Shown here one piece after another: positions 1-63,030 of a DNA stretch of 64,000 nt. The position numbers were made by a program, and so were the translations under genes. The DNA comes from Saccoglossus kowalevskii (Eukaryota > Hemichordata > Enteropneusta > Harrimaniidae): contig NW_003129863.1 of NCBI RefSeq assembly GCF_000003605.2, positions 203,504-267,503 of the forward strand. Reading direction: 5' to 3'. The first letter of the stretch is position 1. The number at the start of each line of letters is the position of its first letter. The notes under the pieces are model-generated. The model ran no database searches and had not been told where the DNA came from. It worked only from the letters and a program-made list of their open reading frames with translations.

Positions 1-135
1 CTACTGTGTGTAATTTCGGAGCTGACTTTATGTATTATGAAAGTTGGTGGTGTTCAGTCATTCAGTGTACAAGCGTACAGTTTAACAGTACAAGTGATCT
101 AACGCCTCCTGTACATACAATTCCCAGAGAGGCTG
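1..135 (+). CDS. Gene A exon 3' (partial): second half of class II D1 domain
   Basis: Read in frame from base 3: TVCNFGADFMYYESWWCSV and on to a GTAAGC donor after base 135 (ends phase 1). The CNFGADF core is shared with the matching exons of B, C and D (59395-59579). The acceptor lies before the window. Confidence 0.8.
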
Positions 136-3100
136 GTAAGCATCTGCACTATACATAGCTTTTCTTTCTTGCTTTAAGACAGCAGTGATTATTTTATTTT
201 GATGATTGGATAGTATGACTGTGAATAATGAACTTTGGCGTCGATTTTGAACCTTACTTTGCTAACTGGCATTACCAAATACAGACATTGTTTCGTCTTC
301 GACGTATAAGAGAGACATATTAATGAGCAACTAAAGGCGGATATGTTTAATAAAAATTATGGAGAGATGATAGATAGACAAATTTAGGGAATAAACAACC
401 GCATTTGAATGTTCCAATCAATAATGCACAATTCTCGACTGTGGCTAGTCTCGATTGTTGCTTTGGTTTATTCCGATTTACTAATCTCCCTTTTATTAGG
501 TATCATGGGACCTCCTAATATAACAAACATCACTGCTGGCAGCGATCAGATATACTTGTCATGGAAGGCACCGGAGACTCCGTACACCAATATAATCACC
601 GGGGAACCCAAACTAGTCAGTGATATCATGAGTGTCTACTATAATTATACATATTGCAAAGCAAATTACACAGACTTGTGTGTGAGTATGAATTTTTTTT
701 TCATTATTTTCTGTTTTAGTAAATATATTGACTACACAAACTAAGTCTGATTTGGGATTATGTTTGTCTGTTCCAGTTGAAGATATTGTAATATTTTATT
801 TCTAGCAACATAGCAGTACAGAAACTAAGACGAATATGCTTTTACATGAGTTCATAGAGCCATGGACGTCTTATGACATAAAAATACAAGGCAAGACTAA
901 TGGAAACTATGGCATTCCTATAAACCTGGTTATTTTTACCAATGAAGCAGGTAGGGTGATTGAAATAATGTTTTGATAGATGTAAAACCATTATTATATT
1001 AATTGTTGTTAAAGTATACTTGTTGAAACTACTATGACTTTCTGGCAGTTATTATACCCCAACGACTGCGAGTACCTAAACGGGAGCTGGTGCAAAGACG
1101 AGTAGGGGAAAGTTGTACGATGATTTCGACGGGCTTAATAGGTTTTCCTGCATTTCCATCGCAGGTTGAATGTTATTACAGCTTACGTTTGTTAGTAGCT
1201 TCTTCCTGTTGTGTAGAGGTGCATTATTGCTTCATTAAATCGGATGTTGATTTTAACAAACAAGTTATTTGGAATCTCGGTTATAGCGAAAGTCTTCAGG
1301 TCTTTGGATATTTACTTAACTTCAAATTTTATTAGCATTGGCAGTAAACCTCATACTGGAACAATGGAGACAAGACGGACAGCGATAATAGATGTGTTAA
1401 TAATTCGTCCGTCTATAAAATGATTCTTACTAATTATAAACCAATTGAAATTTAACAACTGTTTTATATGAATGACATGCAATTCTGCTAGTTCGGACCA
1501 CAATTCATAGGTCGTGTCGGTCGGTCGGTTCATTCATTCATCCATCCATTGTAAGCCAACAATATCACACTCACGCAACGCACTGATATACAACAACCTT
1601 ACAACATTCACAATGCATTAGAAATATATTCTGTATCTAATATATTCCAGCACCGAGTAAAGGAGTGAAAATAGCTATAGTAGAAGTTCAACCACCTGTT
1701 TGTGAGGAATCTCCTGACATAAGAAACGTAACAATCAAGTGGAAGGTAAGCCTATATAATTTTGAAATGTCTATAAAAAACATTAAACGCAAATGATCTC
1801 ATCGCCGAGAGTGAGGGGGCCACGTGACTTCTTTCTGTCCCTCATATAGTGTTATAATATCTCCCACTGGGCATCATGGTGTTTACTGTTTGATTTACCC
1901 TTGTAACCATGGTGTTTATAAAAGAGAACGTGATGATGGAAGAGAATGGAACACTATTTGTTTAATGGGCTAAACAAATCTCGTAGCTATCTCAATCTCA
2001 TCAATGTCTCTGTGCCCATTTGTGTCGGAGGCCCAAGTCTTCAACGACATTGAGTATTTGTCATCAGAATGTTGTATGCAAATTTGTGCAATAATGAAGA
2101 CTTGTATTATTACATTAGTAGTTTAGGATGGACTATAGGTACGACCATGAGGGCGCTGTTCATATTGGGATGCGATGACGTCATACGGGGATGGATGACG
2201 TCACAATGGGAGGCCGTGCATAGATGAGCATAAATAATGACGTCACAATGGGAATTCGTGCATAAATTAGCATAGATGAGAACCATGGCCGTAAAGGGGT
2301 TCATTTGAATTAGGATGACGTCACAATGGGATATTGTGCATACATTTGCATACATAAAATTGATGTGAATACGAGGTCGTGTCGAGTTCATCGTGAATAC
2401 ATTTGCATAAATTACCATCATTTTTTTAATTATTTTTTTTAATTATTTTTAATAATTTTTAATTATTTTTTTTAATGCAAAACAAAACAATACAAAAACA
2501 AACTGTATACAGATGACATAAATAATGACGTCACAATGGGAATTCTGCATNNNNNNNNNNNNNNNNNNNNNNNNNNNNNNNNNNNNNNNNNNNNNNNNNN
2601 NNNNNNNNNNNNNNNNNNNNNNNNNNNNNNNNNNNNNNNNNNNNNNNNNNNNNNNNNNNNNNNNNNNNNNNNNNNNNNNNNNNNNNNNNNNNNNNNNNNN
2701 NNNNNNNNNNNNNNNNNNNNNNNNNNNNNNNNNNNNNNNNNNNNNNNNNNNNNNNNNNNNNNNNNNNNNNNNNNNNNNNNNNNNNNNNNNNNNNNNNNNN
2801 NNNNNNNNNNNNNNNNNNNNNNNNNNNNNNNNNNNNNNNNNNNNNNNNNNNNNNNNNNNNNNNNNNNNNNNNNNNNNNNNNNNNNNNNNNNNNNNNNNNN
2901 NNNNNNNNNNNNNNNNNNNNNNNNNNNNNNNNNNNNNNNNNNNNNNNNNNNNNNNNNNNNNNNNNNNNNNNNNNNNNNNNNNNNNNNNNNNNNNNNNNNN
3001 NNNNNNNNNNNNNNNNNNNNNNNNNNNNNNNNNNNNNNNNNNNNNNNNNNNNNNNNNNNNNNNNNNNNNNNNNNNNNNNNNNNNNNNNNNNNNNNNNNNN

Positions 3101-6100
3101 NNNNNNNNNNNNNNNNNNNNNNNNNNNNNNNNNNNNNNNNNNNNNNNNNNNNNNNNNNNNNNNNNNNNNNNNNNNNNNNNNNNNNNNNNNNNNNNNNNNN
3201 NNNNNNNNNNNNNNNNNNNNNNNNNNNNNNNNNNNNNNNNNNNNNNNNNNNNNNNNNNNNNNNNNNNNNNNNNNNNNNNNNNNNNNNNNNNNNNNNNNNN
3301 NNNNNNNNNNNNNNNNNNNNNNNNNNNNNNNNNNNNNNNNNNNNNNNNNNNNNNNNNNNNNNNNNNNGGGCCATGGTCCTCATTTATGCTAATTTATGCA
3401 CGAATTTCCATTGTGACGTCATTATTTATGCTCATCTATGCACGGCCTCCCATTGTGACGTCATCCATTCCCGTATGACGTCATCGCATCCCAATATGAA
3501 CAGCGCCCTCATGGTCGTACCTATAGTCCATCCTAAACTACTTACATTGGTATTAAATATTCATGCTCAAATAAATCGTAAGAAAACAATTATGGAAACT
3601 TAAGTTAGTATGGCTTCAAATAATACATTTGTCCGCCAATCGCCAAGATTTCGGTTCTTTCGCCGTGGTTTGGTCATATCTAATACTTTCTTCTGGGTGT
3701 TGAGAGATTGGGTCAAAGCATCCTCGAATGTTCAGTCTTGATCAACGGAAAATATCAATCGGTTAGCTTTTTTTCAGTTGTCAGTAGGTTATTGGCATTC
3801 AAATTAACGGTATTGGGAACGGAAAAAATAAAAACATATATTCGATTTAGTTGGCCTGACAGCCCGATCAAGTCCCTAAGTACATATTTCTCCTGCGACA
3901 TTGGGATTTACCGTAAAGCCATATGAAGGAGATATTTCAGGAAGCATGTACTATGTCGCCTGGGTTAATTATCATGTTGTAGGAGTTATTTATAAAAGCA
4001 CTCCCTTTGCATGGCATGCATTTGCGGCGGGTTTACGTAGTCCAATATCTTAAACGGCTATAGCTGTGAAACAACAAACCACTTGGTGGAATTACTTCAT
4101 TTAATTTCAAAACAAACATCTACTATTTACATCATGGATTCAAATGCTGCCTCAAAACAGACACGTATCATAGTATATAATATCATATCATAACTGTTTT
4201 ATCGCAAAATTTTTTATCTGTATACATAGGAAACTTACTTGATTGAAATTTAATTCAATCCTGTGAAGCAAAACAATAATATGAACAACGAAAGTGTATT
4301 GTAATTCCATTGCAGCCCATAGACGAGGAAGATCATAATGGAGTGTTAACACGTTATGAAGTACACTATAGCTACAGTAATACCACTTTACAAATACAGA
4401 ACATTACAGATGTCAGTGCCACGTCTACACTGCTTACTGATCTATATAGATGGGAACAGTATTATATCACAGTCAGTATCTGTACTAGTGCTGGATGTAC
4501 GGAGCATAGAGATGCACCTTACGTTTTAGAACCTGATAAAGTAGGTAGGTTGCATTATGTTGTGCTACTGTGATGATCATTGCTCAATCACGACACTAAT
4601 TAAATGATGGCGATGGTGAAAAATTACTATATAAGGTTATAGAATTAATAGTTCTTATTTCCAATATAGCTCTTGGTTCTCCGAGTAAAATCCAGGCAGA
4701 ACTAACATCGTGGAACTCATTCAACGTGTCATGGTTACCACCTGATAATGATGAATGTATTGTTGGTTACAACGTGAAGTGTGAGAATGGTTGGTCAGCT
4801 ACGAGCGTGTTTGTTCGTGATGACCTCTATGTAAATTTTACCAATCTCTCAGTATCTTTTTACACTATATACGTGTCGGCTGAGATATATTCAAATTACA
4901 ATTCATCTGTGAATGGTTCTCGTGTAGTAATCAGGATAACAATTCCAGGTATATATACTATTTATATATGTGTGTAATATAATATTCAATTCACCAGTGT
5001 TTGGGTACCATGCAGTAACTGGTATAAACATTGCAGGTATGTATACTATACTATATATGTGTCTGCAGGGATATATTCAGATTACAATTCATCAGTGCTT
5101 GGGTACCATGTAGTAACTGGTATAAACATTGCAGGTATGTATACTATACTATATATGTATCTGCAGTGATATATTCAGATTACAATTCATCAGTGTTTGA
5201 GTACCATGCAGTAACTGGTATAAACATTGCAGGTATGTATACTGTACTATATATATATGTTTGCAGTGATATATTCAGATTAAAATTCATCAGTGCCTGG
5301 GGTACCATACAGTAACTGGTATAAATATTGCAGGTATGTATACTGTACTATATATATGTCTGCAGTGATATATTCAGATTACAATTCGTCAGTACCCGGG
5401 GTACCATGCAGTAACTGGTATAAGCATTGCAGGTATGTATAATATACAATATATATGTCTGCAGTGGTATATCCAGATTACAATTAATCAGTGCCTGGGG
5501 TACCATGCAGTAACTGGTATAAATATTGCAGGTATGTATACTGTACTATATATATGTCTGCAGTGATATATTCAGATTACAATTCATCAGTACCCGGGGT
5601 ACCATGCAGTAACTGGTATAAACATTCCAGGTATGTATACTGTACTATATATGTGTCTGCAGAGATATATTCAGATTAAAATTCATCATTTTTTGGGTAC
5701 CATGCAGTAACTGGTATAAACATTGCAGGTATGTATACTGTACTATATATATATATATATCTGCAGTGATATATTGAGATTACAATCCATCAGTGTTGGG
5801 GTAGCATGTATAGAATCAATCATCATAGAACGAGGTGAAGGAAATCAGTCACCCTAGAATACAATGTTCATTGTTTAAAGAAGTGTAAGACATTAACACC
5901 TAGATCACACTATCCAATTATGTAACCACTGGAAGACTTTTAAAGATTCAATCACTCTCAGTTAAAATGCCGATAGAAATGTTGGGAGACTAGTATAGAA
6001 TCTGTCACCATGAACAATGTTCATGACTAGAATGTTTGGGTGATTTCTTAGAGAGTGGATGGTGTTGTTGGAACAACTGCAGGGGTCATTCACCTTAGCA

Positions 6101-8967
6101 TACAGTTGGGTGAAATTGTTTGTAAAATTGTAAAAAAATGCTTTACAAACCAACCTGTTAGGGCGGCAAACCAACCAGTTAGGGTGGAGTTTAAGAATTA
6201 TTTAATTTGAATACTATATATATTCATTTTTTCTCAATTAAGAAATTGATGAACAATTTGTAGGGAATCATGGGCTTGGATGGAATTGCTGGAAGTCATT
6301 TAGGTAGTCGCCATGGAATGAAATGTTCATGTATAAATTGTTGAAACACTTGTAAGGAACAAATCATCATTTGATCACAATGTCCGTAAATTGCTGAAAA
6401 ACTTTCAAGTAATCTTTCCTCGTAGATTGCAGTTTCCATGAATGGAATTATTAAACGATTTGTCCATGTATAGGATTTGTGACCTATAGGAAATAAATCG
6501 CCATAAACTGTAATGTTATGGTCGGAATTGTTATATAATTGAATGTGTTATATAACCAGTAGGAAATAAATCGCCATATAGTGGAATGTTTATGCATAGA
6601 ATTGTTGGAATACGGATTAATCACCGTGATTACATACTCAGTGAATAAAATTGTTGGAAGACGTGAAGAAATAAATTCACCCTAGACGGCAAATTGCAAA
6701 GAGTGAATGTTCAACCTAGAAGGCAAAGTCCATGAAATAGATGACAATCAATCAATCAGCGTACAGGAAATCGATCAGCCATGCGCTTTTCTCGGACGGA
6801 GACGGAATTTTAGACCTCTAGATTACAATAACTTTGTAACCAGTCACCCTGCATTGAACTGTTTGAAAACTTGTTTTGTATCAATTACTCAGACTGCATT
6901 ATCTAGTAAAATTATTGCTAGACTAGCCAAGAAGGCCATGGAATTCTAAAGGAAGATTTAAAGAGAATCAATAATTCCTCAATGCAATTTCCATTGAGAT
7001 GAGATATACAAGATATTCACAGTTAGATTCAGATGAAGTATAAATAATCAAATCCACTACTAGGTAATTCAAAGCTAACTGCCCCGTTTCATTCATTAAG
7101 GTGGCAATAGGGGTAAAATGTGGTAAAATTATGATTCGTGTATTCTAAGCTATCCTGAACATTTATATCTGGGTGAATACGGTAGTGTGTATGCCATACT
7201 AATCATTGTCTAAGGTATTATCTGACTGTCAAATTCGCAATTGACACATAACACATAACTTTGGTAGCGCTGGAGGCTAGATGATCGCATCTCAAGTTGT
7301 CTTCATCTGTTTTGTCTTCTAATTATGGCCATAATTTTTCACATGTTTTACGACTGATGCTGCCTTAAATTATTACAGTACCACTTCACAGAACGTTATG
7401 TGTTCCTTTGGTGTCAGAAAGAAACATGATTCCAATGAACAACTTATACAATTAAAACAAATTTAAAACGTTATTTAAGCTTGGATAATTGTATTTCATT
7501 TTTTACATTCTTATAGGCACTAATGCAGCCACTAATGCGGGCACTGCTATAATTGTTGTGACATTGGTAACATTATTCTTATTAATTTTCATCTGCTTGC
7601 TGCTGGCAATTTATCATATTAAACGTGATGCTATTATAGCATTTGTTTCCAATCCACTACCACAAAAAGTATGGCAAGATTATATGGTAAGTGACGATAT
7701 ATTATTATGGAAATATATATGTAAATATATCTAGTATCTTTAGATGCAGGGATATACATGTCCCATTATGATTCAGACTTGTTCCTCAATGCGCTTTGCC
7801 CTCCAAATGTCGCATTTCTTTTTTGTGAGTATTTGTGTCGTTAGAACATCACCCATTTTGACTATAAAACCTCAATATTTAAATTTTAAAATTAAAAAAA
7901 AAATCGTTTATAGTGATTTCCCCACTTCTGCACAAATTGTAAAAGCGTTATAAATGTTATTATTATATTAAATACATCAATAGATTAATTTGAATTAAAT
8001 GAATAGCTGACGCCACTTTGAACTCTATATTTACGTTGGTATATTATTAGCATTATAAAATGCAAAACAAATGACTGTTGCTGTTACAAATGTGTTTATT
8101 TATTCATGGAATATGTTCACAGTACAGCCCGTGACCATGTCTAGCCATGGACATAGAGTTGAAGTAAAGCCATGCAGTTGAATTATTTTTTTATTTTTAG
8201 CAGTATATATGGTTCCTCTTTCAGAAAATTCATTTTAAGCAGCTTTGTTTTGGAACAGATAATTGCAACTGTGTATTTAATTTTTATTGTTTGAATAGGT
8301 GACTCATAGTGTTATGTGTCACTTGTTAAAAGTGCACTCACCATCCTTACACAGACACTGATGTAATCCGTCTAGTAGTGATGTTTACATGACCAACATC
8401 TAATTTGTTATACTGCAGAAAATCACATTCAAAGTGGAGGAGTATCAAATTGCCGTAGATCCTGATGACGCAGATGAAGAATACGATACAATACGTGAGA
8501 GCAGTGATACAACAAACGTAATGATAACGACAACATCAACTACAATAACATCACCAATTGCAACATCAGAGGCATCATTATCTGACTTATCAGTGTCATC
8601 AGCAATTAGTCATAATTCGGTGAATGGAAATGATGGTATTGAACTCAGACATAATGTGTGGAAGCAGCTGTATTGGAAGACAGAACCATCACTTCCCTTA
8701 ATGAATTCTGATAATTACGTCCATAGACAAGATGAACAACCAGAACAATCGCCTGTTGAATCATCTTGTGATATTCCGTCTTACAGTCATATGTGTGCCA
8801 ACTCACGCGTATCTAGCATTAGTTATTTCGATAATAAAGATGAGAATGATTTGCGCAAATTTTATAATATATTTCTTGGAACCATTGGTGATGAAACTCG
8901 CGATACACCGAATATCAAGAATCAATATTCTAAGGTGACCGAGCCAGGAGGTGAATGTAACTCATGA
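1..8967 (+). CDS. Receptor gene A, class II cytokine receptor-like, short tail (5' end outside window)
   Basis: Predicted type I membrane receptor. Exons seen: 1-135 (partial), 500-681, 806-950, 1651-1745, 4316-4544, 4670-4948, 7517-7686 and 8419-8967, all with GT/AG sites and compatible phases (1,0,1,0,1,1,0). In order they encode the second half of a class II D1 domain, a D2 FN3 domain opening GIMGPPNITNIT, a two-exon D3, a one-exon D4, a transmembrane exon and a tail of 182 aa. By comparison with gene D the missing 5' part probably holds another D1-D2 pair. Family knowledge: such receptors bind helical cytokines and signal through JAK kinases on the juxtamembrane Box1. The tail ends at a TGA where gene D has CCC, and homologous sequence continues after it, so this tail looks shortened. 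No frameshift was seen in the exons. Confidence 0.75.
179..387 (+). pseudogene. Fossil extra copy of the D1 second-half exon (gene A)
   Basis: Similar to the exon at 20505-20707 (GATGATTGG, then NFG-like and NWH-like stretches) and closer still to the better preserved relic at 59131-59359 in gene D. In A the frame opens with a stop and holds others. It starts only about 43 bases after the exon 3' donor, too close for normal splicing between the two. Confidence 0.6.
500..681 (+). CDS. Gene A exon 4': first half of D2 (FN3)
   Basis: Acceptor TTTTATTAG, donor GTGAGT; phase 1 in, 0 out. Encodes GIMGPPNITNITAGSD, then YLSWKAPETPY. The GPP opening and the W of strand C match the start of D2 in class II cytokine receptors. 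Several N-glycosylation sequons; two Cys near the end (YTYCK, DLC). Confidence 0.85.
806..950 (+). CDS. Gene A exon 5': second half of D2 (FN3)
   Basis: Acceptor ATTTCTAG, donor GTAGGG; phase 0 in, 1 out. Encodes QHSSTETKTNMLLHEF, then EPWTSYDIKIQGKTNGNYG, the strand E-F-G part of an FN3 fold. Length 145 nt; the gene D copy is 144 nt and frame-broken. Confidence 0.85.
1651..1745 (+). CDS. Gene A exon 6: first part of D3 (FN3)
   Basis: Acceptor TATATTCCAG, donor GTAAGC; phase 1 in, 0 out, 95 nt as in B, C and D. Encodes APSKGVKIAIVEVQPPVC, then RNVTIKWK. The Cys before ESPDIRNVT is also present in C and D but is Trp in B. Confidence 0.85.
2118..3541. mobile_element. DNA transposon with long terminal inverted repeats, interrupted by an N gap
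   Basis: The left end (2118-2290) and right end (3369-3541) are near-perfect inverted copies of about 173 bp, starting GTAGTTTAGGATGG. Flanks are TTACATTA (2110-2117) and TTACATTG (3542-3549), an apparent 8-bp target duplication, which would fit hAT-type elements. Gene D has the unoccupied site with one TTTCATTG (57016-57023, - strand). The palindrome TGACGTCA occurs eight times in the visible part. No transposase is visible; the middle is the gap. It lies in the intron between gene A exons 6 and 7. Confidence 0.8.
2551..3367. other. Assembly gap (817 N)
   Basis: Run of N inside the inverted-repeat transposon; translations across it mean nothing. Confidence 1.
4316..4544 (+). CDS. Gene A exon 7: main part of D3 (FN3)
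   Basis: Acceptor CATTGCAG, donor GTAGGT; phase 0 in, 1 out, 229 nt as in B. Encodes RYEVHYSYSNTTLQIQ, then VSICTSAGCTEH, a typical FN3 C'-G segment. Very similar in all four genes. Confidence 0.88.
4670..4948 (+). CDS. Gene A exon 8: membrane-proximal D4 (FN3)
   Basis: Acceptor CAATATAG, donor GTATAT; phase 1 in, 1 out. Encodes WNSFNVSWLPPDNDECIVGY, then EIYSNYNSSVNGS. The 3' end of this exon is the source of the repeat array that follows it. Confidence 0.87.
4949..5815 (+). repeat. Minisatellite derived from the 3' end of gene A exon 8
   Basis: About eight tandem units of roughly 97-101 bp. Each contains a copy of the exon end (IYSDYNSSVFGYHAVTGINI), a CTGCAG acceptor-like site and a GTATGT donor. 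Several units are frame-broken or contain stops. Only about two units follow exon 8 in gene D (55385-55557) and one short one in B and C, so the array expanded in A. Confidence 0.85.
5816..7516 (+). other. Gene A intron between exon 8 repeats and transmembrane exon
   Basis: No exon or RNA gene recognised. Homologous sequence is present in gene D (about 54384-55380), so this is shared intron. Short open frames here look random. Confidence 0.6.
7517..7686 (+). CDS. Gene A transmembrane and Box1-like exon
   Basis: Acceptor TTCTTATAG, donor GTAAGT; phase 1 in, 0 out. A hydrophobic run (AIIVVTLVTLFLLIFICLLL) is followed by basic HIKRD and then FVSNPLPQKVWQDYM. The N-P-L-P and following W resemble the Box1 JAK-binding motif of cytokine receptors (inference). 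Confidence 0.88.
8419..8967 (+). CDS. Gene A cytoplasmic tail exon (short form)
   Basis: Acceptor ATACTGCAG, phase 0 in, TGA at 8965-8967; 182 residues rich in Ser, Thr, Asp and Glu. Tyr sites include EEYDTI and DNYVHRQ. The segments DNYVHR and DLRKFYNIFL...GDET are shared with the B/C tails. Gene D reads CCC in place of the TGA. Confidence 0.85.
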   Translation, partial: KITFKVEEYQIAVDPDDADEEYDTIRESSDTTNVMITTTSTTITSPIATSEASLSDLSVSSAISHNSVNGNDGIELRHNVWKQLYWKTEPSLPLMNSDNYVHRQDEQPEQSPVESSCDIPSYSHMCANSRVSSISYFDNKDENDLRKFYNIFLGTIGDETRDTPNIKNQYSKVTEPGGECNS

Positions 8968-9304
8968 AACACATTGGGTGAGGCAGCACCAGACGAGTCA
9001 TATAATTACGGTAAAATGACAGGAGCTGATGATGGCTCAATTCTGCTTGGCCCAAACATCCACTGATAATATTCCCTCTAGTGTTGCTGATGTAATGAGT
9101 ATGTATTTCTAACAACAGTCAGACGCGCTTCACGGCCCAATGAATAAGCCATTCATTTATGATGACTTTAAAGTAGAAGACCTCAGTTACATCACGTCGG
9201 CAAAAACACCTAACGTAGCATTGAGTAAAAATTACAAATTTGTTCTTGAAAATGGGCATTCACCAATTGACGAATACGGCTTGTGCCAAGACACAGTACA
9301 TTAA
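8968..9304 (+). pseudogene. Former tail-coding sequence beyond the gene A stop
   Basis: Similarity to the gene D tail continues in frame after the TGA (NTLGEAAPDESYNYGKMT), then a deletion and a TAA that D shares. After that TAA an open frame runs from MNKPFIYDDFKVEDLSYI to ENGHSPIDEYG. This suggests an ancestral tail longer than either A or D now encodes. Confidence 0.5.
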
Positions 9305-10786
9305 CACCTTGTTGGAGGAAAAAAAAACAGCCGGACACAAATGAGAATGTGGAATTACCGAGGAGGTGCCAGTCAGAGATGTGCCTGAACCACATGTGGA
9401 TGCGAATGTTCAAGGCAAGCCAAGTAATGTTGGTCTTATATGAATGACTGTTAACTCTCTTGTTAAAACCACAACAAATTATGGTGATAATTAACTGATA
9501 TAATATGAAAATAGCATGACTTTCAAAGATATAGCTGAACAATCAACAAGGAAAATTGTTAGCCATTTGTGTAAACAGTAACAGTGCTGACAGTCAACAA
9601 TTTGTAATGGTACGCAGCATACATATTTCGCACATATTTTCTGGTACTAAACACAGACATAGTTTTCTCTTCTTTCTAGAAAATTCAACATTAATTTGAA
9701 CCTTACTTTATTAAATTAGGATATTCTATATTTCTTTCTAAAATCACTAAATTTAGAAGCAAACAGAGTGACAAGACACCATATTAGTGGAAGGTGCACA
9801 AATTAAAGCAACAGATGAAAATGAAATGTTTTGATGAAGAAGGAAAAATTAATTGGCATCAATTGGCGTTCAAACATGATGGGTTGGGGTCTTGGCGTCG
9901 AACATAATGTGGCAATTTTTATGTTTGTTCTGGATTATGTGTGATTTTGAACATTGTATTGTATAATGGTCGACTGTAAGCAGGGGATGTAATTGTTTAT
10001 TACATATAAACTGTAAATTACAGTAATTTGCCATGAAATATCATTAGCAATGTCTGCAATAGATATGAGGCAACATAGTCCCTTTTAAAAGTTTGTTCTG
10101 GTACACTTTGAGCTACAAAGAAGTATTTTGACACCCTATAATTATTGTTGAATGTTATGATTGTGTAATATGACCTTGATAGCTGGATTATTTTACAAAC
10201 AAGGGCACCAGGAACCATTAAATAAAAATGCAAACTAGTCATCTGTCCACGAATTAAAAACAAAAACACCAGGGTGAAGTCAACACCAGGCTGCAGGACA
10301 TGTGCTATGATTAATCATCAGAATAATAGAAATAGTTAAAACCGTACGTATAGATGAACTCATTGAAATCAAACCGTGCAACTTCGAGAAGCATCGGAAG
10401 CAAATGGCAATGTTTGAAAATCGACGCACCAATGACACTTTCTGAATGTCAGGGTTTTGGTATTAATAAAAGTATAAGAAATCGGTGTCAAATATATGTT
10501 TAAAGCAGTCCGTTGGCACAATAGTTTTGCAAAACGGTAACAACGAAAATTACCTTCAATTCACCGTGTATTGATTTATTTCCAGTCTAGAAATAACATT
10601 GAATATGTCATGTACTATAATATTTTTAAATATTGTGGGAGCATTTACCTTGTACTTTAGTTTTCTTCAATTTGTGTGTTTGTTTGTATATGTATAGAAA
10701 TAAATCTCCATAGTGTATGCCATCATGAGCACACAAAACACAACTGATGATCACTAGGTGGCGTACATCAAATACAATATGGTAAG
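9305..10786 (+). other. Gene A 3' flank, no gene seen
   Basis: Homologous in inverted orientation to about 50600-51850 downstream of gene D, so it is part of the duplicated arm. It would include the gene A 3' UTR. Short open frames in it are not supported. Confidence 0.6.
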
Positions 10787-12533: not shown

Positions 12534-12541
12534 TGACGTCA
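12534..12541 (+). promoter_or_regulatory. CRE/ATF-like palindrome TGACGTCA, unit 1
   Basis: Perfect TGACGTCA 35 bp before the start codon of exon 1 copy 1; kept in all four units. Function is inference. Confidence 0.45.
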
Positions 12542-12575
12542 CTGCAAAAAGCTTTTGACAGGTTCCCCATCTGTC

Positions 12576-12639
12576 ATGGCAATGACTCGTCACATATTGA
12601 CGGTGCTTGCGAGTCTTTTGGTCCTTGGACCTGTTAAAG
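12576..12639 (+). CDS. Gene B exon 1, copy 1 (signal peptide)
   Basis: ATG then MAMTRHILTVLASLLVLGPV and KG; donor GTAAGT, ends phase 1. A short n-region with Arg-His and a hydrophobic core fit a signal peptide. A second in-frame Met is at codon 3. Any of the copies could splice to 18853. Confidence 0.75.
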
Positions 12640-33680: not shown

Positions 33681-33683
33681 ATA

Positions 33684-49652: not shown

Positions 49653-49683
49653 GACAGATGCGTTAGGGGGACCTGTTTGCAGT

Positions 49684-51859: not shown

Positions 51860-52535
51860 TGTCAGGGGGAAATTCTTCTCCACGGGGTTCTCCACACTTG
51901 TCAGGGGGGAAACTCGTCTCGTCTCTATATCTCGTCCCCTTGAGGTACGGGATCGGGAAAGTCACTTTAACTTTACAGTCAAATAAGGCACACACAAAGA
52001 AATACGTTTCAGCTCTCGTCCAAGTCGATCTTTTGGAGCACTCTATAAGACACAGCGCCCTGGGTAAAAGTCCCCAACACTCTCACAAGGCTGAACCAAG
52101 ACTCGCCCCTGGACTGGACTGCCTCAAGGCTCGCCCCTGGACTGGACTGCCTCAAGGCTCGCCCCTGGACTGGACTCTCGTCTGCGTCTGTCGTGGAGTA
52201 TTCGCCAAGACCAACTCAAACTCTCTTTATTCATTTTCAAAACTCTAACCAATTACAAAACAGTAAAAGACTCTAGGGCGTAACCTTCAATCATAAAGCC
52301 AATCACACTAAGTACTGAATACGTCATATCTTTTGATTAATCGTTCACTACATTAATAACTATGAATATAAACTGTCAGAATGGCGACGACTATTTCGTA
52401 ATTAGTTCCAAATCACTGAGCCAAGTTCCGTCCAAAACTTCTAATAGGCCTGAACGATGACAGACATAACACAGCAATTCGGCTAATAATCAACTAATTA
52501 AGTCGGTCAACAGATACGCGTAAACAAATTCATTA
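51860..52535 (+). mobile_element. Solo-LTR-like insertion, copy 2, with 30-bp tandem repeats
   Basis: Begins TGTCAGGGGGAAA; shares CCTTGAGGTACGGGATCGG with copy 3 and AACCAATTACAA with copy 1. Inside (52080-52180) CTCGCCCCTGGACTGGACTG is repeated three times in 30-bp units. Absent from the gene A flank. The right edge is uncertain. Confidence 0.6.
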
Positions 52536-52795
52536 TAGTTCACTCAAATAGCTAACAATTCTCAATATAAGGCGTCTCACATTTCGTGGAACAGTCCAGC
52601 TGTGAAGTTACTGTATCTTGGCTCACGCTGTAGTCGTCAATTGGTGAATGCCCATTTTAAAGAGCGAATTTGTAATTTTTACTCAATGCTGAGTTGTGTG
52701 TTTTTGCCGACGTGATGTAAATGAGGTCTTCTACTTTAGAGACATCATCAATGAATGGCTTATTCATTGGGTCGAGAAGCGCGCCTGACTGTTTG

Positions 52796-53535
52796 TTAGG
52801 AATACGTACTCATTTCATCAGCAACACTAGAAGGAATATTATCAATGGAAGTTGCAGCACTTGGGGTTGAATATTTGTTTAGGCCAAGCAGAATTGAACC
52901 ATCACCAGCCGCTGTCATTCTACTGTAATTATAGGACTCATTTGGTGCTGCCTCACTCAATGTGTTGGGTGAGTTCCATTCACCTTCTGACTTCGTTACC
53001 CTAGGATATTGATTCTTGATATTCGATGTATCGCGAGTTTCATCACCAATGGTTCCAAGAAATAGATTACAAAATTTGCTCAAATCTTTCTCATCTTCAT
53101 TATCGAGATAACTAATGCTAGATACGCATGAGTTGGCACACATGTGACTGTAAGACGGAATATCACAAGATGATTCAACAGGCGATTGTTCTGGTTGTTC
53201 ATCTTGTCTATGGACGTAATTATCAGAATTCATTAAAGGATGTAATGGTTCTGTTATGTTAACTGCTTCTTCTATTACAGCTTCTTCCATATGACCAACA
53301 TTATGTCTGAGTTCAATACCATCATTTCCATTCACTGAATTATGACTAATTGCTGATGACACTGATACGTCAGATAATGATGCCTCTGATTTTGCAATTG
53401 GTGATGTTATTGTAGTTGATGTTGTTGTTATTATTACATTTGTTGTATCACTACTCTCACGTATTGTATCGTATTCTTCATCTGCGTCATCAGGATTACA
53501 TCAATTTGATACTCCTCCACTTTGAATGTGATTTT
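52796..53535 (-). CDS. Gene D cytoplasmic tail exon
   Basis: Acceptor ATACTGCAG; TAA at 52796-52798. One base is missing near 53500 (after KVEEYQI) relative to A, so the first codons and the rest are in different frames. Contains DNYVHRQ, DLSKFCNLFLGTIGDET and YNYSRMT, and reads through the site of the gene A stop. Confidence 0.7.
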
Positions 53536-54212
53536 CTGCAGTATAACAAATTAGATGTTGGTCATGTAAACATCACTACTAGACGGAGTACATCAGTGTA
53601 TGTGCAATAATGATGTGTGTACATAGCAATATGAATCACCTATGCCCCCACAATAAGAAAATGAAATAAACGGTTGCAATTGTCTATTCCAAAACAAGGC
53701 AGCCTAAAAATGAATTATCTGAAAGGGGAACGATATATACTGCTAAAAATAACTATTTACTTCAATTCTATGGGATTAATTCAACTCCATGTCCATGGAT
53801 ATACATTGTCACGGGCTGTACCATGAACATATTCCATGAAAACAAATCAATACAGTTTGTAACCGCAGAAGTCAGTTGTTTTGCATTTTCTCGGTATTTG
53901 CAATATTAATTAGTTCAATTAATTCAAATTAATGTATTGATGCATTTAATATAGTAATAACATTTATAACGCTTTTACTATTTGTGCAGTATAGAGGTGG
54001 GGAAATCACTATAAATGATTTTTTTCTAATTTTTCAAATTGAGATTGAGTTTTTATAGTCATAATGGGTAACGTTCTGACAGCACACATACTCACAAATA
54101 GGAAATGAATTGTGGAACAAGTCTGAATCATAATGGGACATGTATATCCCTGCATCTAAAGATACTAGATATATTTACATATATATTTCCATAATAATAT
54201 ATCGTCACTTAC

Positions 54213-54383
54213 CATATAATCTTGCCATACTTTTTGTGGTAGTGGATTGGAAACAAATGCTATAATAGCATCACGTTTAATATGATAAATTGCCAGCAGC
54301 AAGCAGATCAAAATTGAATAAGAATAATGTTACCAATGTCACAACAATTATAGCAGTGCCCGCATTAGTGGCTGCATTAGTGC
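54213..54383 (-). CDS. Gene D transmembrane exon, with +1 insertion
   Basis: 171 nt against 170 in A; an extra C after TTATTCTTATT shifts the frame inside the hydrophobic run. Otherwise nearly identical, including FVSNPLPQKVWQDYM in the original frame. Confidence 0.7.
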
Positions 54384-55557
54384 CTATAACGAATATAAAA
54401 AATGAAATACAATATAATTGGAATACTATTAACGTTTTACATGTTATTCTTTAAAATTTATCATGGAATCATGTTTCCCCTCTGGCGCCACAGGAACACA
54501 TAACGTTCTGCGAAGTGGTACTGTAATTAAGGTAGGAGCAGAAGAAAACATGTGACAAATTACTCATATCATGTATGTAGGGATATGGCCATAATTAGAA
54601 AACAAAAACAGATAAAGAAAACTTGATGCGATCACCTAGCCACCGGCTGTGTCATGCACGTTACTGAATGTGTTAACACCCACAATTCCGACAGTCAGAT
54701 AATCCCTCAGACAAAGATTAGTACGGCATACACACTACCGTATTCACCTAGATCTAAATGTTCAGGTTCTTATAGCTGCTTTTAGCACATTTACCCCTAT
54801 TGCCACAATAATGAATGAAACGGGAGTAGTGGTTGAATTGATTATCTGAGCCTCATCTGAATTGAACTGTTGATATCTTGTATATCTCATCTCAATGGAA
54901 ATTGCATTGAAGAATTATTGATTCCCTTTAAATCTTCCATAGCATTCCGTTGCCTTCTTGGCTAGTTTACCAATAATTATACTTATAGATTTGCAGTTTG
55001 AGTAATTGATGGATAAGAAGTTTTCAAAAAATTCAATTCAAGATGACCGGTTCCATGGATTTCTACAAACAATTTCTTCTATGAATTGTAATCTAGAGTG
55101 ATAAAATACCGTCTTCGTCTGAGAACAGAGCATGGCTGATCGATTTCCAACAGACTGATAGACTGATTGTCATCTCTTCCATGGACTGTGCCTTCTAGGT
55201 TTAACTAACATTCAGTCTCTGCAAATTGCCGTCAACGATGAATGGATATATTACTATATGTATAACTCCTTCTCGTTTCATTGTATTCTTTACAATTCTA
55301 CAAACATTTTCATCCATGGACAATGCAATATATTTTCCTAAATGTAAAAACTCAAGGCGATTGATTCCCTGCCAGTCACCTAACAAAATTTTCATACCTG
55401 GAATATTTATCCCACTTACTGCATGGTACCCAAACACTGATGAATTGTTACCTGAATATATCACTGTAGACACATATATATGTTACGAGAATCATCACAG
55501 ATGAATTGTAATTTGAATATAACACTACAGACACACATACGTACATAGTATACATAC

Positions 55558-55836
55558 CTGGAATGTTTATTCTGGTTACTACATGAGAACCATTCACAGA
55601 AGAATTGTAATTTGAATATATCTCAGCAGACACGTATATAGTGTAATAAGATACTAAAAGATTGTTAATATTCACATAGAGGTCATCACGAACAAACACG
55701 CTCATAGCTGACCGACCATTCTCACACTTCACGTTGTAACCAACTATACATTCATCATCATCAGGTGGTAACCATGACACTTTGAATGAGTTCCACGATG
55801 TTTGTTCTGCCCTGATTTCACTCGGAGGACTGAGAG
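55558..55836 (-). CDS. Gene D exon 8: membrane-proximal D4
   Basis: 279 nt, phase 1 in and out, intact. WNSFKVSWLPPDDDECIVGY, then EIYSNYNSSVNGS. Followed by about two minisatellite units. Confidence 0.86.
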
Positions 55837-55964
55837 CTATATTGGAAATAACAAATATTTATTCTATAACCGTATATAGTAATTTGTTACCATTCAATTA
55901 ATGTTGTGATCATCACAGTAGCACAACGTTTTCTGTCGATTTGCACTTGCATAATGCAACCTAC

Positions 55965-56192
55965 CTAATTTATAGGGTTCTAAAACGTAAGGTGCACCCC
56001 ATGCTCCGTACATCCAGCACTAGTACAGACACTGACTGTGACATAATATTGTTCCCATCTATATAGACCAGTAAGCAGTGTAGACGTGGCACTGACATCT
56101 GTAATGTTTTGTATTTGTAGAGTGGTATTACTGTAGCTATAGTGTACTTCATAACGTGTTAACACTCCATTATGATCTTCCTCGTCTATGGG
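55965..56192 (-). CDS. Gene D exon 7: D3, with -1 deletion
   Basis: 228 nt against 229; one base is lost after CTEH, giving a stop (TAG) before the exon ends. Confidence 0.75.
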
Positions 56193-57356
56193 CTGCAATG
56201 GAATTACAATACATTTCGTTGTTCATATTATTGTATTGCTTCACAGGATTGAATTAAATTACATTCAAGTAAATTTCCTATGTATACAGATAAAATGTTT
56301 TGCGATATCATTTCATCATTACTTGCCTTAGATTTTATATTTTCAATTAACAATGACACATTTTTGAGAAAATATTTATGTACGAATTCGTACATAATGT
56401 ACATTTCGAATTGGTTTTGCTTATAGTGTGCCAGTGTTTACAATAGCGTTATTGTAGATGATGCCCGATTGAATCCATGATGTAAATAGTTTGTTTTGAT
56501 ATTGAATGAAGTAATGCCACCAAGTAATTTGTTGTTTCACAGCTATAGCCGTTTAAGATATTGCACTACATGTACACCTGTCGCAAATGCATGCCATGCA
56601 GAAGGAGTGCTTTTATCAATAACTCATACAACATGATGATTAACCCAGACGACCTAGTACATGCTTGGAAATTAATTTCCAGCTTCCTGAAATATCTCTC
56701 ATAATGGCTTTACGGCAGATCCCAATGTCGCAAGAGAAAGGAATTTGATTGGGCTGTCAGGCCAACTAATACCGCCAATATGTGTTTTTTTTCACATTCC
56801 GTTCCCACTAACGTTAATTTGAATGCCAATAACCTACTGACAACTGAAACAAAAGCTAATCAATTGATAGTTTTTCGTTGATATGACCAAACCACGGTGA
56901 AATAACCGAAAATCTTGGCGATTGGCGGGCACATCTGTCATTGAAGAACTTAAGTTTCCGAAAAATATTGACTAATTGTTTTCTTACGATTTATTTGACC
57001 ATAAACATTTAATACCAATGAAATAATGCAAATCATTGCACAACATTTGCATACAACATTCTGATGACAAATAAACAATTTCGTTGAAGGCTGGGGCCTC
57101 CGACGTAAATGGGTACAGAGACATTGATGAGATTGAGATAGCTACGAGATTTGTTTTAGCCCATTAAACAAATGGTGTCCCATTCTCTTCCATCATCACG
57201 TCCTCTTTTATAAACACCATGGTTACAAAGGTGACAAACAGCTATGATGGGAGATATCACGTGGCTCTCGCACTCTCGGCGATGTGAACTCAGCGATCAT
57301 TTGCATTTAATGTTTTTTTTATAGACATTTCAAATTACAAAAGTATATAGGCTTAC

Positions 57357-57451
57357 CTTCCACTTGATTGTCACGTTTCTTTTGTCAGGAGATTCCTCAC
57401 AATCGGGTGGTTGAACTTTTAATATAGCTATTTTCACTCCTTTACTCGGTG
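57357..57451 (-). CDS. Gene D exon 6: first part of D3
   Basis: 95 nt, acceptor TATTCCAG, donor GTAAGC. APSKGVKIAILKVQPPDC, then RNVTIKWK. Confidence 0.85.
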
Positions 57452-57470
57452 CTGGAATATATTAGATACA

Positions 57471-57885
57471 GAATTTATTTCTAAAGCATTACGAATGTTG
57501 TAAGGTTGTTGTATATCAGTGTGTGCGCGCGTGTGTGTGTGTGTGTGTGTGGGGGGGGGGGTTATTGTTGTTTCTCACAACGAACGATCAAATGAATGAA
57601 TGAATGAATGACCGACACGACCTATGAATTGTAGTCCGAACTAGCAGAACTGCATGTGAGTCATTTAAACAGAGAATTTATTTCTAAAGCATTGCGAATG
57701 TTGTAAGGTTGTTGTATATCAGTGTGTGCGCGCGTGGGTGTGTGTGTGTGTGTGTGTGTGGGGGGGGGGGTTATTGTTGTCTCACAACGAACGATCAAAT
57801 GAATGAATGAATGACCGACACGACCTAGTCCGAACTAGCAGAACTGCATGTGAGTCATTTAAACAGAGTTGTTAAATTTCAATTG
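57471..57885. repeat. Tandem duplication with GT/G-run microsatellite and ATGA repeats
   Basis: A segment of about 200 bp, TTGTAAGGTTGTTGTATATC through the (GT)n, a run of about 11 G and (ATGA)n to AACTGCATGTGAGTC, occurs twice. Gene A has one copy (about 1440-1640, inverse) without the long GT run. Confidence 0.8.
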
Positions 57886-58510
57886 ATTCAGAATTAGTAA
57901 GAATCCTTTTATAGCCGCCCGAAATATTAACGCCTTTATTGCCGATGTTCGCCTCGTCTCCATTGTTCCAGTATAAGGCTTACTGCTAATGTTAATGCTA
58001 ATGAAAGTTAAGTAAAAATCCAAAGACCGCAAACTTGAGGATTTTTGCTAGAACCGAGATTCCAAATAACTCGTTTGTTAAAATCAGAATCCGAATATAA
58101 TGAAGCAATATTGCAAATTTGGGGAAATTTTGGTGGTTTTATACATCCAAATCATGGGTTGTTTAGACGAATGACTGGTCGTTGCCCTGTAGGGAACACT
58201 GACAATTAAGTTTGTCTGCATTTGCGGACTGTTTACTGGCCCATTGCTCCTCTACAAAAGAGGAGCTACTAACAAACGTAAGCGTTGAAAACATTCAACC
58301 TGAGTTGGAGCTGCTGGAAAACCACTTAAGTCCGTCAAAATCATCGTACAACTCCCCCCCCCCCTACTTTTTCGGACCAACTCCCGTTTATGTACTCGTT
58401 GGGGTATAATAACTGGCAGAAGGTCATAGTAGTTTCAACAGGGAAACCTTGACAACAATTAGTATAATGGTGGCTTTACATCTATCAAAACATTATTCTA
58501 ATCACCCTAC

Positions 58511-58654
58511 CTGTTTCTTTGGTAAAAATAACCAGGTTTATAGGAATGCCATACTTTTCAATTGTCTGCCTTGTATTTTTAGGTCATAAGACGTCCATGG
58601 CTCTATGAACTCATGTAAAAGTACATTCGTTTTAGTTTCCGTACTGCCATGTTG
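58511..58654 (-). CDS. Gene D exon 5': second half of second D2, with -1 deletion
   Basis: 144 nt against 145 in A. The frame shifts after YDLKIQGR and meets TAA soon after. Confidence 0.75.
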
Positions 58655-58802
58655 CTAGAAATAAAATATTACAATACGTTTAACCGCAAATGTTGTAAAT
58701 AGGAAAAAAAGACAAATATAATCCCAAATCAGCCTTAGTTTGTGTAGTTAATATGTTTGTTTAAACAGAAAATATTGAAAAAAAAAACTGTTTCATACTC
58801 AC

Positions 58803-58984
58803 ACACCCGTCTGTGTAATTTGTTTTGCAATATGTATAATTATAAAAGACGCTCATAATATCACTGACTAGCTTGGGTTCCCCGGTGATTATATTGGTGT
58901 ACGGTGTCTCCGGTGCTTCCCATGACAAGTATATATTATCGCTGTCTGCAGTTATGTTCGTTATATTAGGAGGTCCCATGATAC
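58803..58984 (-). CDS. Gene D exon 4': first half of second D2
   Basis: 182 nt as in A. GIMGPPNITNITADSD, then YLSWEAPETPY; donor GTGAGT. Confidence 0.86.
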
Positions 58985-59130
58985 CTAATAAAAAAGAGGT
59001 TAGTAAATCGGAATAAACCAAAGCAACAATCGGGTATATCACGAGATATTGCGCAATTCACTTTACATTGGCACAGCCGGGAATTGTGCTTTATCGATTT
59101 TAACATTCAAATGCGGCGGTAGTTTATTTC

Positions 59131-59359
59131 CTAAATTTGTCTATCTATCATCTCTCCATAATTTGTATTAAACATATCCACCTTTAGTTGCTCATTATTA
59201 TGTATTTTTATACGACGACGACGAAGCAATGTCTGTATTTGGGAATGCCAGTTACCAAAGTAAAGTTCAAAATCGGCGCCAAAGTTACATATTTGCGACA
59301 CCGTATTCAAACAGTCATTGTTAACCATCCAATCATCACCATGGAATAATCGCTGCCGT
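59131..59359 (-). pseudogene. Fossil or alternative extra copy of the D1 second-half exon (gene D)
   Basis: Open from an acceptor TTGCTTTAAG in the phase expected for this exon: GDDWMVNNDCLNTVSQICNF, then GADFELYFGNWHSQIQ, but no donor where one is expected, and a TAG follows. It lies 35 bases after exon 3', too close to be spliced to it, so it could only serve as an alternative 3' end or is a relic. Confidence 0.6.
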
Positions 59360-59394
59360 CTTAAAGCAACGAAAAGCTATGTATAGATGCTTAC

Positions 59395-59579
59395 CAGATT
59401 CTCTTGGAATTGTTTGTACAGGAGGCGTTAGATCACTTGTACTGTTAAACTGTAGGCTTGTACACTGAATGACTGAACACCACCAACTTTCATAATACTT
59501 AAAGTCAGCACCGAAATTACACACAGTAGTTGTAATGTTTGTGCATTCAGGCTTTTCGAGATAAGGAACAGTGCCACAT
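59395..59579 (-). CDS. Gene D exon 3': second half of second D1
   Basis: 185 nt, phase 2 in, 1 out; acceptor TTTACAG, donor GTAAGC. VPYLEKPECTNITTTVCNF, then GADFKYYESWWCSV. Partner of the partial exon at 1-135. Confidence 0.86.
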
Positions 59580-60089: not shown

Positions 60090-60213
60090 TTTTGGTATCT
60101 GACGGTATAAAATACATCTTCATCATCGTATACGTTGGTCGGGCGATCCCATGTAAGTGTAGAATTCAAGTTCACAGTCACATAATTAATATTCGTTGGA
60201 ATACCAATAACAT
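60090..60213 (-). CDS. Gene D exon 2': first half of second D1
   Basis: 124 nt, phase 1 in, 2 out. IPTNINYVTVNLNSTLTW, then DVFYTVRYQ: the class II D1 signature again. Donor GTAAGT. Confidence 0.87.
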
Positions 60214-60604: not shown

Positions 60605-60737
60605 TGGAAACTGTTAAATGTCTCGGAATTCCATATTTTCCCTTTGTTTCACCCTGGAGTACAATTTCGTAAGACATTACAGGTTCTATTAATTCCATCA
60701 GAGTTACGTTGCTGTCTTCTCCCAAATACTGTTGCAT
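60605..60737 (-). CDS. Gene D exon 5: second half of first D2
   Basis: 133 nt, phase 0 in, 1 out; acceptor ATTCATAG, donor GTATGT. MQQYLGEDSNVTLMELIEPV, then MSYEIVLQGETKGKYG. Confidence 0.84.
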
Positions 60738-60843: not shown

Positions 60844-61022
60844 CTTAGTTTCAGTTTCGTTTATTTTCCAGTATGTAAGATTGTAATTAACTGTCATTAC
60901 ATCGTCCATTCGTAGATATCCACTATCAGAGTTACTGAATGGTGTCTCTGGTGCTAACCATTCTAAATAGATGTGATAGCTGTACGCAATTACTGTGGTA
61001 AACTCAGGGCGTCCGATGATAC
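60844..61022 (-). CDS. Gene D exon 4: first half of first D2
   Basis: 179 nt, phase 1 in, 0 out; acceptor TTCAACACAG, donor GTAAAT. GIIGRPEFTTVIAYSYHIYL, then EWLAPETPF. IGRP in place of IGPP. Confidence 0.85.
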
Positions 61023-62078: not shown

Positions 62079-62266
62079 CATCGCAACATGGTTGTACTAT
62101 TTCAGGTTCTGTCCAATCAGCAGCTCGGGTCACATTATTCATTACCCTTATTTGGGCATACCAGTATGCGTAGATGTTATTAAAATCTGCACCAAAGTTA
62201 CAAACTGTTTCTGTTATATTGTAGCAGTCTGGCTTTTGTAACCATTCTCCACTCAGCTGGGATTCC
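62079..62266 (-). CDS. Gene D exon 3: second half of first D1
   Basis: 188 nt, phase 2 in, 1 out; acceptor TTCTTGAAG, donor GTGGGT. EWLQKPDCYNITETVCNF, then YWYAQIRVMNN and ADWTEPE. The YAxIR and W positions fit class II D1. Confidence 0.86.
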
Positions 62267-62906
62267 CTTCAAGAAATAAATTATATATTTTAATGATGCA
62301 GAGAAAGCGTTTATGATATAAAATAACAATTAATCTAAGTTTTTCCTTATGCAGCAGTTATAACGCACGTAATTCAAACGCACTCTGTAAGGCGACTTTT
62401 GAATCTTTAAAATAGCAATAAGTCAAATAAAGTTAATATTGAAGCAATTCTAAAATGCACTTATGGTACGATTTTTGAGTCCTGTGTTTTTGCTAGACAT
62501 GTCGTCCTTTGAATTCTGAATTAATACCCAATAATTCCTATATTATCAAGCAGTGTATACTCTCACATGTATGTCCTTCACGAAATTGACGCGAAACAGA
62601 ACACGGCGAATCGCTATCGGTTTCTTAACCACAGGAGCTAGTAGTCAACATCAGGTAAATATTTGCGGTATATAAACATTTGTTTCTTATTTTTTGTTTT
62701 ATTTGTTTTAAAGGATTTGAGAATAAATATTGAGTACTCTCGAATTTACGAACAGCAAATGAACTATACTGCACACTTTATATTCTAGTTTTTATTCAAC
62801 TGATAAAGTAAGGGTCAGGGTTAAAATGACAACATAAGACATTTTATCCATATTTCTAAGGAATAATGACAAAACTATACAAAAGATAAAATGAGAAATG
62901 ACATAC

Positions 62907-63030
62907 TCTTGGTACCGTACTGTGTAAACGATGACGTCATCAGCGGTGGCATTTTCTGGTGGATCCCATAATAACGTAGAATTCAGATTCACTGTTTGAA
63001 ATCTGATATTAGTTGGCAGAAATCGAACAT
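62907..63030 (-). CDS. Gene D exon 2: first half of first D1
   Basis: 124 nt, phase 1 in, 2 out; acceptor TATCTTCTAG, donor GTATGT. PTNIRFQTVNLNSTLLWDPP, then DVIVYTVRYQ. Strongest class II D1 signature in the window. Confidence 0.88.

Follow-up and report, generated by a model that had tools for sequence, protein, structure and literature searches.

Candidate class II cytokine receptor genes clustered in the acorn worm Saccoglossus kowalevskii

The closest described counterparts of the genes analysed in this study are the class II cytokine receptors, i.e. the receptors of the interferon (IFN) and interleukin-10 (IL-10) families, whose ligand-binding module consists of two domains, D1 and D2. 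The surveys that we consulted trace this module only to vertebrates. Here we describe a cluster of putative receptor genes of this class in the hemichordate Saccoglossus kowalevskii. Four of them (genes A, B, C and D) lie in a stretch of 64,000 nucleotides (hereafter the window), i.e. bases 203504-267503 of contig C2165 (324,751 bases; NW_003129863.1 of RefSeq assembly GCF_000003605.2), and a fifth (gene E) is located upstream on the other strand. An earlier interpretation made from the letters of the window alone (the sequence-only reading) had proposed a cluster of four class II receptor-like genes in a probable invertebrate, and the source of the DNA, a hemichordate, bears out the latter. 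Each gene follows the same plan: one or two class II modules, two ordinary FN3 domains (D3 and D4), a transmembrane helix and a cytoplasmic tail.

Likeness to IL-20R alpha, IL-22R alpha 1 and IL-22BP is seen in the PDB searches (both gene A and a profile built from five modules match IL20RA best), in the C-x7-C pair of D1 and in the opening of D2, which reads IGPP in IL20RA. However, IL20RA and IL22BP have a D2 cysteine that is missing from the hemichordate modules, and to our knowledge none of these receptors has an FN3 stalk. IL10RB, the best match of gene B, is similar in D2 (YNVQYWK..EPWTTYCVQVRG vs YNLTYWK..VPYTSYDIVVQG), but the cysteine is replaced in the hemichordate sequence; as far as we know, IL10RB has a short tail and no stalk. 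IFNAR1 also carries two D1-D2 modules in one chain, and gene A aligns to parts of both, although the doubling of the module looks like a separate event and we are aware of no further FN3 pair in IFNAR1. Indeed, an FN3 stalk of this kind is not known to us from any vertebrate class II receptor. In gp130 and Domeless, which belong to class I, the binding module likewise stands on an FN3 stalk and the tail is long; in contrast to these, the hemichordate modules have neither C-x-W in D1 nor WSXWS. Among invertebrates, oyster CgIFNR-3 has been claimed to be an interferon-receptor-like protein (accessible part of PMC8218723); it is set beside the cluster by description only, and its host is a mollusc, not a deuterostome.

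What appears to be new here is the predicted occurrence of class II receptors in a hemichordate, with an architecture unlike that of the vertebrate receptors we can recall. We found no description of a hemichordate class II cytokine receptor in the open-access literature, most subscription papers, preprints and database annotations lying outside this search. The presence of such receptors in S. kowalevskii would shift the origin of the family to before the ambulacrarian/chordate split, and part of the signalling system may therefore predate vertebrates.

Identity of the D1-D2 modules

We consider it highly probable (roughly 0.88) that the genes of the cluster are hemichordate class II cytokine receptors, i.e. 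single-pass cell-surface proteins whose D1-D2 region is homologous to the module that binds the ligand in IFN/IL-10 receptors. This assignment, already put forward in the sequence-only reading, is supported by matches of the Pfam model Tissue_fac to D1 and by PDB searches, and the E values obtained (4.8e-19 for Tissue_fac in whole protein A, 5.4e-18 for the five-module profile against PDB) point to a likeness beyond chance.

When D1 domains were scanned alone, Tissue_fac scored above its cut-off and above fn3 in all four cases (50.4 bits for A module 1, 36.1 for A module 2, 31.1 for B and 52.2 for E module 1; fn3 at most 20.9). For D2 scanned alone, Interfer-bind was the top model in three cases out of four (over the cut-off for A module 2 and B, under it for A module 1), and it matched a longer gene E sequence at 8.3e-9. 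Over whole protein A, Tissue_fac matched two stretches and fn3 reached 5e-19; whole protein B gave fn3 4.8e-14, Tissue_fac 4.2e-8 and Interfer-bind 0.0014. In both proteins the best fn3 stretch lies in D3, and domain-by-domain scanning identified D3 and D4 of gene B as plain fn3. Gene E, represented by D1 to D3 only, matched Tissue_fac at 6.8e-20. The sequence-only reading had named clearly higher scores of generic FN3 models as an outcome that would refute class II; such scores did not occur for the D1 domains, and fn3 took the lead only in one of the four D2 domains and over whole protein B.

Class II receptors occupied the top ranks in all three PDB searches with D1-D2. The gene A modules, compared with all PDB chains, matched first IL20RA (8.6e-13), IFNAR1, IL22R1, IL22BP and IL10RB, and 18 of the 25 rows at E<=10 were class II receptors (the others were five rows of growth hormone receptor, GHR, and two further proteins). 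Gene B matched IL10RB best (1.5e-7), with class II receptors in 12 of 13 rows. The first 19 rows found with the five-module profile were all class II, from IL20RA (5.4e-18) down to 0.0012, followed by DSCAM at 0.0033; altogether its 30 rows comprised 24 class II receptors, six others and no class I receptor. Two controls behaved differently: D3-D4 of gene B found no cytokine receptor in 19 rows at E<=0.1, the closest matches being PTPRD/PTPRF and fibronectin, and a generic FN3 exon from elsewhere in this genome (L001; G000:C3100:56144-56386) found none among the best 60 of its 65 matches at E<=0.01. Hence the class II signal is a specific property of D1-D2.

The D1 and D2 motifs listed in the sequence-only reading are indeed present, and all are located in exons with AG/GT splice sites: P-x-NV...LxW...YTVRY and C-x7-C-NFGADF...WYAQ(V/I)...SxW in D1, and IIGPPE in D2, whose opening in the hemichordate modules reads I(I/M)G(P/R)P. 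The C-x7-C pair of D1 is kept in all aligned modules (7/7 hemichordate, 5/5 vertebrate), and some of the hemichordate ones have extra cysteines. These marks bear on the possibility that the genes belong to the class I branch (gp130/Domeless/IL6R-like), i.e. that they encode a class I cytokine module on an FN3 stalk. The order of binding module, FN3 stalk and tail is the gp130 plan, gene A has a match to GHR at 0.0016, and reports of class I receptors in invertebrates exist, with IL6R-like receptors reported in S. kowalevskii itself (available part of PMC13203501). Class I receptors are defined by a four-cysteine D1 with CxW and by WSXWS ending D2 (as given in the accessible part of PMC1963337). 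However, none of the seven hemichordate modules aligned contains C-x-W in D1, where the conserved pair is C-x7-C, or WSXWS in D2 (by eye, YG(I/T)P is found close to where WSXWS would be expected); moreover, no Pfam class I model matched, and the profile rows contain no class I receptor. We regard membership in class I as very improbable.

Several results weigh against the class II assignment, in addition to those concerning downstream components that are given below. A second cysteine pair in D2, which involves the YC(V/L) strand, is a defining mark of class II; the cysteine of this strand, present in all five vertebrate rows, is replaced in all seven hemichordate modules, which read Y(D/E)I. 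The second modules of A and E carry two other D2 cysteines, at different places. D2 of the second module of gene E, scanned alone, yielded fn3 only, below the fn3 cut-off, and over whole protein B fn3 ranked above Tissue_fac. The match of gene A to GHR, a class I receptor, also belongs here. Finally, the generic exon L001 reaches 30 bits with Tissue_fac, close to D1 of gene B (31 bits), and since it passes the cut-off, a near-threshold Tissue_fac match is not sufficient by itself for gene B. In L001, fn3 (55 bits) scores above Tissue_fac, which is the reverse of the D1 domains of the cluster. This exon was the only match of a whole-genome search with Tissue_fac, which missed the cluster, in our opinion because an intron interrupts each D1; it is a warning for surveys that count Tissue_fac matches as class II receptors. 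Copies in the genome were sought with protein queries in place of this model.

The intron phases provide a further line of evidence. In gene B they run 1-2-1-0-(1-0-1)-1-0 through the module, the FN3 exons, and the transmembrane and tail exons, and in gene A the series 1-2-1-0 occurs twice, once per module. The published vertebrate class II pattern is 1-2-1-0-1-0 (accessible part of PMC8863823), and comparison with gene B indicates that the FN3 exons are an insert in the phase-1 intron after D2. It could be argued that the genes encode generic FN3 receptors of the adhesion or phosphatase type whose first domains came to resemble class II by convergence, since the D3 and D4 domains of gene B are of the ordinary FN3 type, with PTPRD/PTPRF and fibronectin as their nearest matches, and Tissue_fac picks up even a generic FN3 exon. 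Nevertheless, D1-D2 found class II receptors first in every PDB search, D3-D4 and L001 did not, and the class II intron phases are kept. The generic FN3 explanation is thus largely refuted, and we consider it the least probable of the alternatives. Both it and class I membership are much less likely than a class II protein turned to another use.

In a tree of 12 rows, the hemichordate modules formed a single clade (100/99), with a long-branch warning. The two-module state of A, D and E therefore most likely arose apart from that of IFNAR1, and the cluster most likely by local duplication. The comparison with the vertebrate IFN/IL-10 receptor gene cluster, drawn in the sequence-only reading, is unsupported as a sign of shared cluster ancestry, because the hemichordate modules form their own clade.

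Gene models and the inverted duplication

The window is an inverted duplication: self-blastn aligned 1..29238 with 59529..36871 in many pieces of about 80-95% DNA identity, introns included. The gene order is A>, B>, <C, <D, the mirrored pairs being A/D and B/C.

1..29238, plus strand: left arm of the inverted duplication (3' part of gene A, and gene B), by self-blastn
36871..59529, minus strand: right arm (genes C and D), by self-blastn; mirrored gene D exons extend to 63030 (tblastn)

Gene models were obtained by a protein-guided exon search combined with splice-site scoring and a reading-frame check. The predicted four genes were all found in the window, but the first of them begins upstream of it, a fifth lies nearby, and two (C and D) are disrupted. 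The end that had been given for the cluster, 63030, is exactly the first base of the first-module D1a exon of gene D. A plan with one D1-D2 module, as proposed, applies to genes B and C; genes A, D and E have two modules per chain, and two extra FN3 domains outside class II (D3 and D4; shown for gene B) were not foreseen. The expected signal peptide and single transmembrane exon were found, as judged by hydrophobicity.

The models of genes A (14 exons, 879 codons) and B (10 exons, 927 codons) are complete, with open frames, and their internal exons have AG/GT borders and compatible phases. The 5' exons of gene A are located outside the window, in the preceding 5.6 kb, with the signal-peptide exon about 5.6 kb upstream.

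1..135, plus strand: gene A second-module D1b exon, by splice sites and frame; it starts about 50 bases before the window
500..681, plus strand: gene A second-module D2a exon (GIMGPP)
806..950, plus strand: gene A second-module D2b exon
1651..1745, plus strand: gene A D3a exon (ordinary FN3)
4316..4544, plus strand: gene A D3b exon
4670..4948, plus strand: gene A D4 exon (ordinary FN3, single exon)
7517..7686, plus strand: gene A transmembrane and Box1-like exon
8419..8967, plus strand: gene A cytoplasmic tail exon (182 codons)
12576..12639, plus strand: gene B signal-peptide exon (hydrophobic ATG exon with a phase-1 donor)
18853..18979, plus strand: gene B D1a exon
20433..20707, plus strand: gene B D1b exon (C-x7-C, CNFGADF, SSW)
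23207..23373, plus strand: gene B D2a exon (IIGPPE)
23928..24075, plus strand: gene B D2b exon
24335..24429, plus strand: gene B D3a exon
25019..25247, plus strand: gene B D3b exon
25646..25927, plus strand: gene B D4 exon
26538..26686, plus strand: gene B transmembrane and Box1-like exon
27400..28647, plus strand: gene B cytoplasmic tail exon (415 codons)

The signal-peptide exon of gene B is present in four copies (12576, 14499, 16424 and 17151) within a tandem repeat of about 1.92 kb (window 11193-17537), which possibly reflects alternative promoters or first exons, or else faulty assembly around the N gap at 16603. Downstream of the D4 exon of gene A, at 4987-5808, there are about eight tandem copies of 99 bases derived from the 3' end of this exon; several have AG- and GT-like borders by eye.

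Genes C and D are the disrupted members. Gene C lacks the D1b acceptor of gene B, which is changed, has an N gap inside D3b and has a shortened tail, and four exons of gene D have a broken frame (second-module D2b, the transmembrane and tail exons, and D3b towards its end). Possibly both genes are pseudogenes, or else errors in the assembly account for the breaks.

37564..38634, minus strand: gene C tail exon (end shortened compared with B)
39376..39524, minus strand: gene C transmembrane exon
40110..40391, minus strand: gene C D4 exon
41033..41223, minus strand: gene C D3b exon, interrupted by the N gap at 40655-41032
41806..41900, minus strand: gene C D3a exon
42122..42269, minus strand: gene C D2b exon
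43105..43271, minus strand: gene C D2a exon (IIGPPE)
45986..46224, minus strand: gene C D1b exon (the one acceptor that fits the phase is weaker and shorter)
47800..47926, minus strand: gene C D1a exon
49589..49652, minus strand: gene C signal-peptide exon
52796..53535, minus strand: gene D tail exon, with a frame break close to the start
54213..54383, minus strand: gene D transmembrane exon, frame broken
55558..55836, minus strand: gene D D4 exon
56001..56192, minus strand: gene D D3b exon (the part that can be read; a frame break lies close to the end)
57357..57451, minus strand: gene D D3a exon
58511..58654, minus strand: gene D second-module D2b exon, frame broken
58803..58984, minus strand: gene D second-module D2a exon
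59395..59579, minus strand: gene D second-module D1b exon
60090..60213, minus strand: gene D second-module D1a exon
60605..60737, minus strand: gene D first-module D2b exon
60844..61022, minus strand: gene D first-module D2a exon
62079..62266, minus strand: gene D first-module D1b exon
62907..63030, minus strand: gene D first-module D1a exon

Gene E is located on the minus strand at about 145.3-163.4 kb of C2165 and comprises two modules, D3, D4 (whose exon runs into a gap), a transmembrane exon and a tail that stays open for 584 codons. Only 43 bases past the D1b exon of its second module there is another D1b exon, B-like and flanked by splice borders (window coordinates about -45749 to -45550); the 43-base intron suggests mutually exclusive use of the two, by which half of the second D1 would be swapped. 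Relics of an extra D1b exon, which look decayed, were noticed near 180-290 (gene A) and 59236-59340 (gene D).

The exons of the mirrored copies are under purifying selection, with ratios of nonsynonymous to synonymous substitution (dN/dS) of 0.44 for B/C (dS 0.13) and 0.35 for A/D (dS 0.15). These values were obtained with a simple counting method, excluding the second-module D2b, transmembrane and tail exons of gene D and trimming a few exons to the part readable in both copies.

Genome searches, which covered the 572-Mb assembly (4830 contigs), returned at least 29 matches to D1-D2 of gene B and at least 34 to the modules of gene A, and all of those listed are on contig C2165. Most likely, the cluster grew locally from a single ancestor by tandem and inverted duplication and by duplication of modules within genes. 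A join of two haplotypes by mis-assembly is unlikely, considering that the arms differ by about 15% (dS 0.13-0.15) and are inverted, and that the centre (29-37 kb) has no N gap. Vertebrate contamination was rejected on the basis of five divergent paralogues within one 325-kb contig and a Saccoglossus-like mitochondrial contig. The latter (17,037 bases) has COX1 on the strand opposite to that of most genes, ND2 ahead of ND1, nd5 next to cob and a tRNA-Lys reading UUU; by our own assignment of genes and usual residues, the one AAA codon of COX1 is at a usual Lys site, ATA is frequent at usual Ile sites, and AGG is missing from the main frames except for a single codon in the untrimmed start of COX3. 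Features of this kind are on record for S. kowalevskii: AUA read as Ile and AAA as Lys, no AGG, tRNA-Lys UUU, an inverted COX1, a transposed ND1 or ND2, and adjacent nd5 and cob (PMC3121625 and PMC2697986).

Cytoplasmic tails and putative signalling components

Close to the membrane, the tails of genes A, B and E all have S-x-P-(L/I)-x4-W-(Q/H)-(D/E)-Y, followed by E-x-YD, GIEL and (N/D)NY(V/I)HR, and NYSR(V/M)T is common to B and E. We read the conserved membrane-proximal P-x5-W motif as a putative Box1. The tail had been described as Tyr-rich, which is true only to a moderate degree (9 tyrosines in A, 12 in B and 11 in E). The tail of gene E (C2165, about 145.3-147.1 kb) additionally contains four Y-(G/R)-(M/L)-S-Q motifs in a repeated stretch; this motif resembles, but differs from, the YxxQ site of STAT3.

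The computations establish the receptor side: the relationship of D1-D2 to class II receptors, the exon plan, the open models of A and B, and purifying selection. By analogy with the family, D1-D2 would bind a secreted helical cytokine at a predicted elbow and thereby pair two chains; tail tyrosines would then be phosphorylated by a kinase that docks at the membrane-proximal motif, and the phosphorylated tail would recruit STAT, which is present in the genome. The FN3 pair may serve as a stalk that, as in gp130, might determine how far the paired chains extend.

The genome was searched for the corresponding components in an exon-by-exon reading. STAT_linker was matched by one exon (7.6e-25), whereas STAT_alpha and STAT_bind had no match. 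The probes for JAK, i.e. the models FERM_F2 and Jak1_Phl and a DNA pattern for FWYAPE (a mark of JAK), had no match, and no ligand gene was matched by the IL10 family model. The control genomes were also silent in these negative family searches, and the negatives are not proof of absence. A 2026 paper reports a S. kowalevskii JAK with a kinase domain only (according to the accessible part of PMC13203501). For IRF, we detected five exon matches at apparently three places (one on C2729, two on C1049), which is consistent with the three IRF genes reported for this species (PMC2885996, as far as its available text goes).

We tentatively suggest that acorn worms might have an interferon-like cytokine system, antiviral or mucosal, that signals through STAT, with a still unrecognised ligand and perhaps without a canonical JAK, but such a system is rather doubtful at present. 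A study published in 2023, in which S. kowalevskii was injected with poly(I:C), called the components of antiviral immunity in hemichordates "a provocative and open question" (PMC10210618); in the main text of that article, as accessible, JAK and class II do not occur and "interferon receptor" appears once, in the title of a reference. The acorn-worm class II receptors are a named, testable candidate for such immunity in the same animal.

Alternatively, the genes may be true class II homologues that do not signal for cytokines, being decoy or scavenger receptors, protein-binding receptors like tissue factor, or decaying genes. Tissue factor is a precedent for a class II protein outside cytokine signalling (accessible part of PMC1963337), genes C and D are disrupted, the tail of gene A is short, and the JAK probes and the IL10 model remained without a match in the exon-by-exon reading. 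On the other hand, the tails of B and E are long and open and contain tyrosine motifs that recur in A, the exons are under purifying selection, and A, B and E all retain the P-x5-W motif. We find a role outside cytokine signalling unlikely, though it deserves more weight than either class I or generic FN3 receptors, and we retain the interpretation of these genes as class II cytokine receptors.

Neighbouring sequences

Rfam and tRNA scans of the window gave no match. At 33673-33990, on the minus strand, there is an open reading frame resembling a GIY-YIG piece of a retroelement (YVGQTGQTPRNRF) by eye, with no Pfam match at 0.1. Genes or pieces of genes of the Sulfotransfer_2 type are interspersed between and beside the receptor genes, at window coordinates -15033 to -14230 (1.9e-42), 32663-33130 (a fragment, 4.8e-20), 72013-72786 and 76741-77553 (the last two recognised by likeness only). 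The copies of this gene were probably duplicated together with the receptor cluster.

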